NCBI GenBank assembly: GCA_023663085.1
Contig: JAMPIB010000043.1
Coordinates: 1-32,767, forward strand
Reading direction: 5' to 3'
Length of the DNA: 32,767 nucleotides
Origin: Ruminococcus sp.
Lineage (GTDB): Bacteria; Bacillota; Clostridia; Lachnospirales; Lachnospiraceae
Below are positions 22,393 to 26,727 of this stretch, piece after piece. A program made the translations under genes and the position numbers. The stretch's first letter is position 1. Every line of letters starts with the position of its first letter. The notes below the pieces were generated by a model, which saw only the letters and a program-made list of their open reading frames with translations, made no database searches and was not told where the DNA came from.

Positions 22393-23748
22393 TCATCCGT
22401 CTTTCTGCCTGTCCCGTTTCCAGGCCATGATCTCTTCCAGCCTGTCGCGCACTTTTCCCTCGTCTCCCTGCCCGGTTGGAAAATAATAGCGCCTTCCCCG
22501 CATGGATTCCGGCAGACATTCCATAGCCGTCAGTTTTTCCTCCGTATCATGCGCATACTGATAGCCTTCTCCGTAATGCAGCTGTTCCATCAGTTTCGTC
22601 GGTGCGTTCCGCAGATGCAAAGGTACGGGCGGTGAATTGTCTGTTCTGATATCCTGCTTACATTTCTCACAGGCCGTATAAAGCGCGTTGGATTTCGGCG
22701 CCATGGCCAGATATGTAACCGCATGCGTCAGATGCACGTCACATTCCGGCATCCCCAGAAAGTGACAGGCCTGATAGGCCGCTATGGCAAGCGGCAGCGC
22801 ATGGGAATCCGCCATTCCGATATCCTCGCTGGCAAAACGCACCAGCCGTCTGGCGATATAAAGGGGATTCTCACCGCCCTCTAACATGCGTAACATCCAA
22901 TAGACCGCAGCGTCCGGATCGCTGTTGCGCATGGATTTATGCAGAGCCGAAATAATATTGTAATGTTCTTCGCCCGCCTTATCGTATAAAAGAGATTTCC
23001 GGTTGATACACTGTGCCAGCCCTTCATCCGTCACTAAAAGCGCACCTTCCGGCGTGATCTCACCATTTAAAACGACCATTTCCAGTGTATTGAGCGCCAT
23101 ACGGGCATCTCCGCCTGCAAATACGGCAATGGCTTTTAGCTGTTTGTCCGTGACCAATATCTTCTGTCCTGCGAATCCGGCGGGATTATGCAGGGCATTT
23201 TCTAAAAGTTGTACGATATCGTCCTCTTCCAATGCCTTTAAAACAAAGACCCGGCACCTGGAAAGCAGAGCCGCGTTGACTTCAAAAGACGGATTCTCCG
23301 TCGTCGCACCAATCAGCAGGATACTCCCCTTCTCCACAAAGGGCAGAAAAGCATCCTGCTGCGCCTTATTAAAGCGGTGGATCTCGTCTACAAAAAGCAC
23401 TGTGCGGATTCCCATCTTACGACTGATCTCCGCCTGATTCATCACTTCCTTGATCTCTTTGATGCCGCTTGTGACTGCGCTGAAATTGATAAAATCCGCC
23501 TTCGTCCTGCCGGCGATGATTCCCGCAAGCGTCGTCTTGCCGACGCCCGGAGGCCCCCAGAATATCATGGAGGAAATCTGGTCTTTCTCGATCAACTGCT
23601 TAAGTACCCTGCCCTCGCCCAGCAAGTGTTTCTGTCCGATAAACTCCTCTAACGTCTGCGGCCGCAGGCGGCTGGCTAACGGGTGGGACGCCAGTCTGTC
23701 GCTGTTGTTCTCATAATTACCGACATCAAACAATGTCATCTGTTCCAT
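22393..23748 (-). CDS. rarA: replication-associated recombination protein RarA (MgsA)
   Basis: RarA is a AAA+ clamp-loader-like ATPase acting at stalled replication forks. The 451-residue protein has an N-terminal PLASRLRPQTLEEFIGQKHL, Walker A GPPGVGKTT (65-73), Walker B VLFVDEIHRFNKAQQDAFLP, sensor 1 GATTENPSFE and the arginine-finger region LLSRCRVF. The C-terminal MgsA domain includes DPDAAVYWMLRMLEGGENPL and ARRLVRFASEDIGMAD. Length is normal. The start at 23748 has AAAGG about 10 bases upstream. A promoter overlaps the end of the upstream gene. Confidence 0.96.
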   Translation of the reverse strand: MEQMTLFDVGNYENNSDRLASHPLASRLRPQTLEEFIGQKHLLGEGRVLKQLIEKDQISSMIFWGPPGVGKTTLAGIIAGRTKADFINFSAVTSGIKEIKEVMNQAEISRKMGIRTVLFVDEIHRFNKAQQDAFLPFVEKGSILLIGATTENPSFEVNAALLSRCRVFVLKALEEDDIVQLLENALHNPAGFAGQKILVTDKQLKAIAVFAGGDARMALNTLEMVVLNGEITPEGALLVTDEGLAQCINRKSLLYDKAGEEHYNIISALHKSMRNSDPDAAVYWMLRMLEGGENPLYIARRLVRFASEDIGMADSHALPLAIAAYQACHFLGMPECDVHLTHAVTYLAMAPKSNALYTACEKCKQDIRTDNSPPVPLHLRNAPTKLMEQLHYGEGYQYAHDTEEKLTAMECLPESMRGRRYYFPTGQGDEGKVRDRLEEIMAWKRDRQKDG

Positions 23749-23813: not shown

Positions 23814-23842
23814 ATTATAGCAAACATCTGTTCTATTTTCAA
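23814..23842 (-). promoter_or_regulatory. sigma-A promoter of rarA
   Basis: The minus strand reads TTGAAA, 17 bases, TATAAT: 5 of 6 at -35, a perfect -10, and ideal spacing. The -35 overlaps the stop codon of the Enzyme I-like gene. The predicted start of transcription is about 60 bases before the rarA ATG. The -10 lies in a TATAAT-AA-ATTATA-like palindrome. Confidence 0.8.
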
Positions 23843-25107
23843 CTGATCTCCCGGATTTTTTTACGCATTTCCAATAAAATATCAGACGTTATTATAAACT
23901 CGTCAACTCCCATTTTTACTAAAAATTCAAGTAATTCTTCATCCGCAGCCATCTCTTCGCAGACACCCGCTCTTTTTCCCTCCTGATGCGCAGCCTGCAC
24001 AGACATCTCAATCAGTTTCAGTACCGCTTCATGATGTGGATCAAAAAAAGACTGCATACTTTTATTTGCTCTGTCGATGGCCATGGTAAACTGGCCGAGA
24101 TGGTTCGTTCCGACACAGAAAAAATCCGCTTCTTTTGCCAGTTTTTCACTGATAAGGGCCGCCGCGGGCGTCTCAATCATAACGCCAAGTTCTACTTCTT
24201 CCTGATAGGCGATTCCCTCTTCTCGCAGTTCCTGTTTGACCTGCGCGGCGATCTCTTTTACCATCAATACCTCTTCTAAGGAAATGACCATCGGTATCAG
24301 AATGCCCAGAGAACCGTAACAGCCTGCCCGGTAGAGGGCGCGAAGCTGGGTCTTTAAGATTTCCGGCCTGCTTAGACAGATACGCAGGCCGCGGCAGCCA
24401 AGCGCCGGGTTGCTTTCTTTTTCCAGTCTGAAATATGGCGCCGCTTTATCTGTCCCGACGGCCAGTGTGCGGATGATGACTTTTTTATCTTTCATTTTAA
24501 CAAGTGCCTGTTTATAGGCTTCAAACTGCTGCTCCTCCTCAGGAAAATCCTCATTTTCCAGATAGAGAAATTCGCTTCTGAAAAGCCCGATCCCTTCCGC
24601 GTCATTATCAAGTGCATTGTCAATATCCTGTAAACTGCTGACGTCCGCATACAGGTGTATCTTATTGCCGTCCGCCGTAACGGTCTCTTTTCCTTTCAGA
24701 GCCTGAAGACTTAGCTTTTTCTCAACTAATATCCGCTTTCGCTCCTGAAGTTCCGCATAAGTTTCCTCATCGGGATCGATGTAGGCGGTTCCGTTTTCTC
24801 CATCCAGAATGACCTGATGACCGTCATATTCTTCCAGATTATGCGTCTGCATGGCGATAAGCGCCGGGATTCCAAGACTTTTGGCCAACATCCCGGCATA
24901 CGAATCGCCCGCGCCCTGCTCTAATAAGAAGCCCGCCATCTTTTCATCCGGGAGTCCCTTCGTATCGGCCGGGGTCAGTTCTTTCGCCGCTATGATAAGC
25001 GGCCCCGTAAGCGCCTTACCGCAGATTCCCTCCATATCCGGTTTTTTATAAAAAATCTTTCCTATACAGATATCCTCATATACACTTCTGCCATACAGCG
25101 TGACCAT
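23839..25107 (-). CDS. Enzyme I-like protein lacking the HPr-binding domain and catalytic His
   Basis: Enzyme I of the PTS (about 540-575 residues) passes phosphate from PEP to HPr. This 422-residue relative keeps the beginning (about 1-22), the swivel domain (about 35-115) and the PEP-binding barrel (about 150-422), but the helical HPr-binding domain between is absent. The swivel motif GGRTSHTSIMA of E. coli reads GAGDSYAGMLA here (residues 65-75), so the phosphorylated His is Tyr70. In the barrel, GLFRSEF, RTLAVGTDK, NPALGCRGLRI, GVMIETPAA and GVCEEMAADE are kept. GTNDLTQY is GTNHLGQF, so the second metal-binding Asp is His336. Catalysis as ordinary Enzyme I looks impossible. It lies 27 bases below HPr and has a clear ribosome-binding site (AAGGAAGGG). 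It may bind PEP or pyruvate as a sensor, or be decaying; the open frame is intact. A true ptsI may lie elsewhere. Confidence 0.9.
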   Translation of the reverse strand: MVTLYGRSVYEDICIGKIFYKKPDMEGICGKALTGPLIIAAKELTPADTKGLPDEKMAGFLLEQGAGDSYAGMLAKSLGIPALIAMQTHNLEEYDGHQVILDGENGTAYIDPDEETYAELQERKRILVEKKLSLQALKGKETVTADGNKIHLYADVSSLQDIDNALDNDAEGIGLFRSEFLYLENEDFPEEEQQFEAYKQALVKMKDKKVIIRTLAVGTDKAAPYFRLEKESNPALGCRGLRICLSRPEILKTQLRALYRAGCYGSLGILIPMVISLEEVLMVKEIAAQVKQELREEGIAYQEEVELGVMIETPAAALISEKLAKEADFFCVGTNHLGQFTMAIDRANKSMQSFFDPHHEAVLKLIEMSVQAAHQEGKRAGVCEEMAADEELLEFLVKMGVDEFIITSDILLEMRKKIREIS

Positions 25108-25134
25108 ACGAAAATCCCTTCCTTACAGATACTT

Positions 25135-25392
25135 TTACAGATTCTCCTGCAAAAACTGTTTTAAGCCCCAGGCGGCTTCTTTTTCATCCGCGCCCTCTAT
25201 ATTCATGGTTATCATATCGCCCTTAGAGGCACCCAATCCCATAACGCCGAGAATGCTTTTGGCGTCTCCGCTCTTTTCCTGATGGGATATCTGAATGGCC
25301 GAACTGTATTTACTCGCCTCCCTGACTAACAGCCCCGCGGGTCTGGCGTGCATTCCTACTTCGTCTTTGATCCTGTACTGAAATTGTTCCAT
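25135..25392 (-). CDS. ptsH: HPr-family phosphocarrier protein
   Basis: HPr carries phosphate between Enzyme I and the sugar-specific Enzyme II proteins, and in Firmicutes is also phosphorylated on Ser46 by HPr kinase for catabolite control. The 85-residue protein has the His15 motif VGMHARPAG (with Arg17) and the Ser46 motif AKSILGVMGLG, in their standard positions. Length is normal. Both regulatory sites are intact, so it looks fully functional, in contrast to the Enzyme I-like protein immediately downstream. Its ribosome-binding site lies inside an extended hairpin. A Crh-like role is disfavoured because His15 is present. Whether this is the cell's main HPr is not known. Confidence 0.93.
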   Translation of the reverse strand: MEQFQYRIKDEVGMHARPAGLLVREASKYSSAIQISHQEKSGDAKSILGVMGLGASKGDMITMNIEGADEKEAAWGLKQFLQENL

Positions 25393-25467: not shown

Positions 25468-26727
25468 TTATAGATACCAAACCGGTATCTGCAATATATT
25501 TTCTCTTAACGCGCCTACATCCGGACAGTTACAGATGACCGCGCCCATACCTCTTTTTTTCCCCGTAATCTCATCCAATATGGAAAATGCAGAGGTCATG
25601 CTGGCTTTCGCCTCTGTATTTTTCTTGATCTCAACTGGATACAAAGTTCCGTTTTCTTCGATGATAAGGTCAATCTCTGACTCTATTTCTCCTGTTTCTC
25701 CGTTTTCTTTGACTTTTTTCTTGTCGCGCCCGCGATAATAAGACACGAAATGTCGGTAATCCAGTCCCTCATTGGCAAATGATTTGAGAATCTCAGAGAC
25801 GACAAATGTTTCAAATAAAGGCCCGCTCATTGCACCGTAAGCCAGATTCTCCGCTGTAAGCCACCTTGTAAGATAACAGGCCAGACCGGTATCCCGAAAA
25901 TACAGCTTGGGAGATTTGATCGCCCTTTTTAAGATATTGGAAGTGTAAGGTTCGAGCAGATAAATGATTCCCGATGCTTCTAAAATAGACATCCAGTTTT
26001 TCACTGTTCCTACATCTTTGCCGATTTCTGAGGCTATGTTGGAATAGTTTAATACTTCCCCCGTTCTGGCGGCAGCTGCGATCAGACATTGCCTGAAAGC
26101 GTTTAAGTCCTGTACTACTGCCAATTCCCGGACATCTCTTTCCATATAGGTTTTCACATAATCTGCATAAAATGCGCTCCACTCTTTATTTTTATCCTGC
26201 AATTCCGGATAGCTGCCTCTGTGAATCACTTCCCAGATGTTTGGCGGTTTTTTTACAGTCTTTCGCCGCTCCGCCACATATTCCATCGTTGGCAGAAAAT
26301 GCTGGTTAAAAACATCTCCCATACTCTCACGCATTGACAGGCCCGAAAGTTCGACGATTCCAATCCTCCCGGATAAAGACTCGGAAACATTCTGCATCAG
26401 ATGAAACGGCTGCGAACCGGACAGGCAGAACAGTCCCCGTTCCTCACTCTCGTCACATTTTATCTTGATATAACGAAACAATTCTTTCGCCCTTTGCACC
26501 TCGTCGATCGTCACGGGCGGCGCGTTCAGCGTCAGAAACATATCCCCGGCTTCTCTGGCCTGCTGTTCCATAAACGGATCATCCAAAGACACATACCGCC
26601 TGTCGGCAAATACTTTCTTTAATAAAGTGGACTTGCCGACCTGACGCGCTCCTGTCACCAGTATGGCCTTATAAGTCTCGTTGTATTTGTATAATCTGCT
26701 TTCTAAGGCTCTGCAAATATAATCCAT
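25468..26727 (-). CDS. AAA_14/DUF4143 family ATPase
   Basis: This 419-residue protein has an N-terminal P-loop ATPase domain: Walker A GARQVGKS (26-33), Walker B PPVTIDEVQ, and a sensor-like CLSGSQPFHLMQ. A winged-helix-like middle follows (LNYSNIASEIGKDVGTVKNW). The C-terminal DUF4143 region has EIDLIIEENGTLYPVEIKKN, a D...ExK pattern like PD-(D/E)XK nucleases. Such genes are common, patchily distributed and of unknown role, sometimes discussed near mobile or toxin-like genes. The start has GGAGG 7 bases upstream. It sits between feoB and HPr without functional connection, suggesting insertion or transfer. Confidence 0.9.
   Translation of the reverse strand: MDYICRALESRLYKYNETYKAILVTGARQVGKSTLLKKVFADRRYVSLDDPFMEQQAREAGDMFLTLNAPPVTIDEVQRAKELFRYIKIKCDESEERGLFCLSGSQPFHLMQNVSESLSGRIGIVELSGLSMRESMGDVFNQHFLPTMEYVAERRKTVKKPPNIWEVIHRGSYPELQDKNKEWSAFYADYVKTYMERDVRELAVVQDLNAFRQCLIAAAARTGEVLNYSNIASEIGKDVGTVKNWMSILEASGIIYLLEPYTSNILKRAIKSPKLYFRDTGLACYLTRWLTAENLAYGAMSGPLFETFVVSEILKSFANEGLDYRHFVSYYRGRDKKKVKENGETGEIESEIDLIIEENGTLYPVEIKKNTEAKASMTSAFSILDEITGKKRGMGAVICNCPDVGALRENILQIPVWYL

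Follow-up and report, generated by a model that had tools for sequence, protein, structure and literature searches.

Three described systems lie closest to the protein considered here: Enzyme I of the PTS (PtsI, TIGR01417), the EI-Ntr/NPr pair, and an engineered form of E. coli Enzyme I. According to PMC5537066, the barrel of Enzyme I is its dimerisation domain, and autophosphorylation requires the dimer. The same study describes the construct EI(H189A) without EIN-alpha, which binds PEP with a KD of 0.037 (unit taken as micromolar), compared to 0.43 for EI(H189A), an affinity difference of about twelvefold, and 260 for EIC, the barrel alone, and which closes on PEP without turnover (PMC5537066). 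EI-Ntr and NPr are, in the excerpted text of PMC2405797, a parallel regulatory Enzyme I/HPr pair beside the sugar PTS. For a thermophilic Enzyme I, the linkers between both N-terminal subdomains are given as residues 19-32 and 143-156 (PMC8295985, in excerpt). The literature searches, which covered most papers at the level of listings, brought up no description of a natural Enzyme I trimmed in this way.

The locus described here lies in a window, i.e., the whole stretch of DNA that was analysed, of 32,767 nucleotides from Ruminococcus sp. It encodes on the minus strand (23839..25107) an Enzyme I-like protein of 422 aa, which is predicted to be catalytically dead and derives from EI-2, a name coined here for the rarA-linked second Enzyme I of the genus. 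Pfam assigns the mobile domain PF00391 to residues 37-106 and the PEP-binding barrel PF02896 to residues 135-421 (327.8 bits; 23845..24705, minus strand), and with 411 bits the protein scores above the curated cut-off of TIGR01417 (PtsI), 341.7. The HPr-docking domain PF05524 (PEP-utilisers_N) was not found in the 422-aa protein by a scan that detected it in four of four full-length Enzymes I (three EI-2s and one ptsI), which confirms the claim of the sequence-only reading that the helical HPr-binding domain has been lost. The reading frame and ribosome-binding site, which the same reading had described as kept, are intact: the frame has no stop, and TAAGGAAGGG (25116..25125, minus strand) is read from the sequence eight bases 5' of the ATG.

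The trimming can be placed with respect to the orthologues. Residues 1-20 (25048..25107, minus strand), the retained start of the alpha/beta phosphohistidine subdomain, align one to one with EI-2 residues 1-20 and are followed by a bridge of 15 residues (21-35; 25003..25047, minus strand), which by the EI-2 alignment and the missing PF05524 match replaces about 133 EI-2 residues with the HPr-docking helices; residue 36 then corresponds to EI-2 residue 154. Judged by the linker positions given in the excerpts of PMC8295985, the kept parts stop inside linkers, so that the cut is clean at the domain level. MAFFT puts bridge residues 21-31 onto EI-2 residues 126-136, and if this placement is correct, the final docking helix would survive in its tail part. 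Downstream of residue 36 there is neither a stop nor an indel of the gene's own relative to eight orthologues (one of them, G007, partial), the sole internal gap column being a one-residue insertion common to G050 and G048.

Against E. coli EI (2hwg), phmmer aligns 388 residues without a gap (32-419 against 151-538, offset 119), and conserved residues were compared with an alignment of 46 other Enzymes I, with residue numbers after E. coli EI. At the position of the phospho-acceptor His189, which is H in 46 of 46 other Enzymes I, the trimmed protein has Tyr70 (codon 24898..24900, minus strand), and at the position of Asp455, D in all 46, it has His336 (24100..24102, minus strand); both substitutions, as proposed earlier, are borne out by the ungapped alignment. 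Further changes, absent from the sequence-only reading, are Gly503 to Glu384 (23956..23958, minus strand), adjoining the retained Cys383 (Cys502), Asp335 to Ala216, and Ala222 where EI-2s have Lys. Among eleven more positions compared with the 46 sequences, ten are retained: R296, R332, K340, R358, E431 (Glu312 in the trimmed protein), N454, R465 and C502, in line with the earlier statement that most motifs of the PEP barrel persist, as well as G356 and E504; the eleventh is G503, here Glu. We take Glu431 and Asp455 to be metal ligands, and it is likewise our assumption which of the checked positions contact PEP or metal. For Arg358, the role in PEP/metal contact is taken from excerpts of PMC5537066, and for the backbone amides of Asn454 and Asp455 from excerpts of PMC9856155. 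All eight PEP-contact residues are retained; with 25 of 138 sites changed overall, chance alone would give this with a probability of about 0.2, so that the retention argues weakly for a kept function.

The trimmed protein is changed at 25 of 138 family-conserved sites, compared to 0 to 9 of 126-149 in leave-one-out counts for the 46 other Enzymes I (the highest control has 9/148, or 9/142 with sister sequences removed). These changes are unevenly spread: in the His, beta3-alpha3 and beta6-alpha6 loops 12 of 43 conserved sites are changed, compared to 13 of 95 elsewhere (p 0.057), and at the 215 sites that are invariant in the other EI-2s the corresponding counts are 17/50 and 26/165 (Fisher p 0.008). 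The beta3-alpha3 and beta6-alpha6 dimer loops alone hold 12 changes at 40 EI-2-invariant sites. A structure model was built from a shallow alignment, in which PPDK-like pieces make up 14 of the 17 rows; the pLDDT of the model is below 50 for residues 1-16, averages 56-70 by tens over residues 31-110, and is partly below 50 in the beta3-alpha3 and beta6-alpha6 loops. Fold comparison of this model adds only that the barrel body is predicted to be Enzyme I-like. Loss of catalysis is plain from the sequence, and phosphoryl transfer from PEP to HPr by the trimmed protein is predicted to be absent. In comparison with PtsI, the protein has the barrel, the mobile domain and an HPr neighbour in common, but lacks the docking domain and the phospho-acceptor His, and its Asp455 is substituted. 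EI-Ntr differs in another way, as it has its own N-terminal GAF domain and a phosphotransfer role, whereas the trimmed protein has neither.

The HPr neighbour, HPr-2 (25135..25392, minus strand; 85 aa, PF00381 E 4.4e-27), has an intact His15 (25348-25350) and Ser46 (25255-25257), as had been read from the DNA. On the other side of the trimmed gene lies a rarA-type AAA ATPase (22393..23748, minus strand), presumably of the rarA family, which neighbour comparison shows to be a syntenic marker of the locus in relatives; all three genes are on the minus strand and run in one direction. Upstream of HPr-2 a DUF4143/AAA_14 ATPase is found at 25468-26727, the place being taken in G040 and G017 by an ABC ATPase, a permease and an ABC_sub_bind protein. 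A sigma-70-like match at 23814-23842 (11/12), whose second hexamer is preceded by TG, overlaps the Enzyme I-like gene at its end and faces rarA; promoter-like sites number five in the stretch, compared to 3.1 (sd 1.7) in shuffles. The genome (95 contigs, 90.7% complete, the window being contig C37) also encodes a full Enzyme I: the search for a true ptsI that the sequence-only reading had called for found an intact gene of 557 aa on contig C12 (PF02896 match C12:20510-21373), which has an HPr of its own and a IIA-like protein (IIA by eye) as neighbours, and the idea that ptsI is missing from the genome was rejected on account of this copy. The trimmed protein is 48% identical to this ptsI over residues 34-421. 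The genome further has a PPDK-sized PEP-utilising frame on C20 and one HPr kinase, and its HPr-type matches number six in all, five of them above the cut-off.

Within the genus, EI-2 is present in 9 of 77 genomes, the window's included (match at E 1e-135 or better). The trimmed gene shares its locus and clade with the other eight, with 58-66% identity, but differs in form: seven of them are complete, with 539-555 aa and both His and Asp retained, and the eighth (G007) is split over two contig ends and retains both residues where read. A tree of the nine EI-2s and 38 other Enzymes I separates the two groups with a bootstrap of 100, the trimmed protein falling inside EI-2, and the split remains at 100 with five Enzymes I added (the four best-scoring unplaced ones from other genera among those fetched, and a piece from G027), all of which fall outside EI-2. 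A search with the HPr of the window yields matches at E 1e-22 or better in 14 of 77 genomes, and HPr-2 at an identity of at least 67% occurs in six, i.e., the window genome, G040, G017, G011, G064 and G036. The order HPr-2, EI-2, rarA is found in the window, G011, G064 and G036 (where rarA is cut after 81 codons by the end of the contig); ABC ATPase, EI-2 and rarA without HPr-2 in G021, G050, G048, G075 and, split between two contigs, G007; and ABC ATPase, HPr-2 and rarA without EI-2, with about 67 bases in between, in G040 and G017. At 29 rarA loci besides the window's, EI-2 stands beside rarA in seven, HPr-2 alone in two, and neither in 20 within the stretch covered, the latter including G036, which carries its EI-2 on a different contig, and possibly some loci cut by contig ends. 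Trees group the window with G040 and G017 (support 90-94 for rarA, 93-94 for HPr-2 and 99 for ptsI). Taken together, the gene arrangements, the rarA loci and the trees indicate that the module is frequently lost in this group. The HPr-2 copies without an Enzyme I of their own (L150:5311-5601 and L151:5189-5479, in G040 and G017) are probably served by ptsI. The pairing with HPr in the window is inherited from an ordinary HPr-2/EI-2 pair as in G011, G064 and G036, rather than built for a sensor.

Among the matches listed, no relative has the trimmed architecture or the His-to-Tyr change, which so far are confined to one genome. Homologues with the same domain loss and H-to-Y change, for which a search had been proposed, thus did not emerge: the eight other EI-2s in the 77 genomes of the genus keep both the domain and the His (G007 where read). 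A search of 60 genomes gave 67 Enzyme I-type rows with four open frames below 530 aa, i.e., the window, two G007 pieces and one from G027; the G007 and G027 pieces end at contig ends, and the G027 piece lies outside the EI-2 clade. In the family, 19 of 397 genomes pass E 1e-128, and apart from the window's their frames measure 542-585 aa; in the order 303 of 393 genomes match at E 1e-80, with one other short frame among the matches listed (G412, 449 aa). The latter (L193:2597-4214) is an ordinary ptsI with intact His in two overlapping frames (110 and 434 aa), which may be real or an assembly error. A contig scan with the trimmed protein yielded, among the best 80 loci, 78 at 24-27% that look PPDK-like by span and motif and two that are Enzyme I-like, and a viral contig scan revealed no relative among 85 stretches. 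An Enzyme I-like protein of an uncultured Clostridiales (L037:5536-7212, ONLC01000027.1) retains the His motif NSHASILAR and has LLTYDMSAEITAD at the Enzyme I motif RTLDIGADK; Arg332 and Lys340 are seemingly lost (by eye), and it is possibly another altered Enzyme I.

Whether the gene is under selection was addressed with codon models that were written for this analysis. Synonymous sites are saturated on the window branch (6-12 neutral changes per codon), which makes plain dN/dS weak, and site-class and simulation tests were used for this reason. Neutrality of the window branch costs 35.5 lnL units under a three-class codon model and 26 under a one-class model and is thus rejected, the whole-branch neutral model being likewise rejected, as expected, on four control branches. 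The test for purifying selection suggested earlier therefore speaks against neutrality of the branch as a whole, its last part lying outside the reach of the test. For such a neutral last stretch, the optimum is near 0.02 changes per codon and the upper limit near 0.2. The protein branch of EI-2 is 0.46 in the window, compared to 0.17 for rarA, and 0.32 compared to 0.14 in G075. A RELAX-like k of 0.71 was obtained for the window EI-2 (gain 2.3 lnL), the values for four control branches being 0.87-1.22 with gains of 0.5 at most; given a k of 0.81 for rarA of the same genome (gain 1.9 lnL), part of the relaxation may be attributable to the lineage. Neutral simulations at 0.15-0.2 changes per codon, which covers most of the excess, stayed stop-free over 384 codons in 0.015-0.075 of 200 runs, and this frequency falls further with any indel rate (indel rates being assumed). 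Changes that need at least two base changes make up 5 of 25 at family sites and 16 of 42 at EI-2 sites, compared to means of 1.6 and 2.5 in neutral simulations that produce a similar number of changes; at least five occur with a frequency of 0.02 in those simulations, rising to 0.11 when 0.4 changes per codon are simulated. With 0.51, the GC3 of the window gene is within the range of the other EI-2s (0.37-0.52) and thus uninformative. The absence of stops and indels together with the loop bias points to a fold that is kept while catalysis was let go. The selection data give no date for the loss, as an intact EI-2 that was weakly constrained and then recently lost its function would give nearly the same picture.

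Three alternatives have to be weighed. An assembly artefact, in which a collapse or chimaera deleted the domain from an otherwise normal gene, would be conceivable for an assembly in 95 contigs and of 90.7% completeness, but is very improbable: His189, Asp455, Gly503 and some 40 further sites invariant in EI-2 are changed outside the deletion and in frame, and a collapse makes no such changes. A partner with a dominant-negative or tuning effect, forming mixed dimers with the true Enzyme I via the retained barrel and thereby reducing its activity, seems improbable as well; the barrel as dimerisation domain and the dependence of autophosphorylation on the dimer (PMC5537066, in excerpt) speak for it, as does the 48% identity shared with the ptsI product, but the dimer loops are those with 12 changes at 40 sites invariant in EI-2. 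Far more weight belongs to a decaying paralogue, to which we give a considerable probability, somewhat below one half: EI-2 would have been long under weak but real constraint, would have lost docking domain and histidine recently, and would now drift to deletion as in sister lineages. The instability of the HPr-2/EI-2 module (pair, EI-2 only, HPr-2 only or neither beside rarA across relatives), the 25 changes at 138 family-conserved sites against a control maximum of 9/148, the RELAX-like k of 0.71 with its gain of 2.3 lnL, and the recent neutral stretch permitted by the codon model all fit such decay. Against it stand the frame without stop or frameshift, changes that favour loops, and a rarA k of 0.81, by which the relaxation may partly belong to the lineage; the excess of two-base changes over the neutral means is indecisive, as the intact long-branch G075 has 12 of 33.

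The retained, non-catalytic PEP-binding protein is narrowly favoured over a gene that is being lost. That a former second Enzyme I has lost HPr docking and phosphotransfer and is retained as a non-catalytic protein is a tentative reading, with a likelihood just short of even. Repurposing, as the sequence-only reading had put it, accordingly stands in part: the domain and residue losses, a ptsI elsewhere, the intact frame, a non-neutral branch and the loop bias of the losses agree with it, but no homologue shares the form, and module loss is a live alternative. Of the suggested sensors, for PEP/pyruvate or for the state of HPr, a protein responding to PEP is the better fit. A sensor of the HPr state is unlikely, since the missing part is the HPr-docking domain, and was rejected as the lead idea for this reason and given HPr-2 without EI-2 in G040 and G017. 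In the retained protein, the alpha/beta domain and barrel would still fold, dimerise and close on PEP, which would be bound and not consumed because the docking domain and the histidine are gone; the protein could then report or buffer PEP, or alter the ptsI Enzyme I through mixed dimers, while phosphorylation of HPr-2 would fall to the true Enzyme I. By analogy, both losses of EI(H189A) without EIN-alpha, which were introduced there by design (PMC5537066, in excerpt), recur in the trimmed protein, and a PEP-binding, non-consuming protein is hence the concrete reading; tight binding and closure without turnover are properties of that laboratory construct, which has Ala instead of Tyr and, in the excerpts of PMC5537066, is not said to be changed at Asp455. 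The changes in the loops of the trimmed protein, His336 above all, may weaken or shift PEP binding. The more specific proposal of a natural form of the construct, i.e., a switch closing on PEP that is left unspent, possibly in mixed dimers with the true Enzyme I and with HPr in the ordinary cascade, rests on this analogy and is rather unlikely in its entirety. Several points speak against a retained function: the most-changed loops are those that bind PEP and form the dimer, and they are poorly modelled; the form occurs in one genome, and G040 and G017, its nearest relatives by the trees, are without EI-2; and the loss could be recent, since the codon model tolerates neutrality at the end of the branch over as much as about 0.2 changes per codon.

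The same two losses as in the studied construct make the PEP affinity of the trimmed protein directly testable. Even with a decaying gene, the locus shows how a parallel HPr/Enzyme I pair is lost, since relatives represent several stages of this process and HPr persists longer than the Enzyme I that belongs to it. A working gene would encode a natural PTS pseudoenzyme, binding PEP and arisen from Enzyme I via both losses that have been used in thermodynamic studies.
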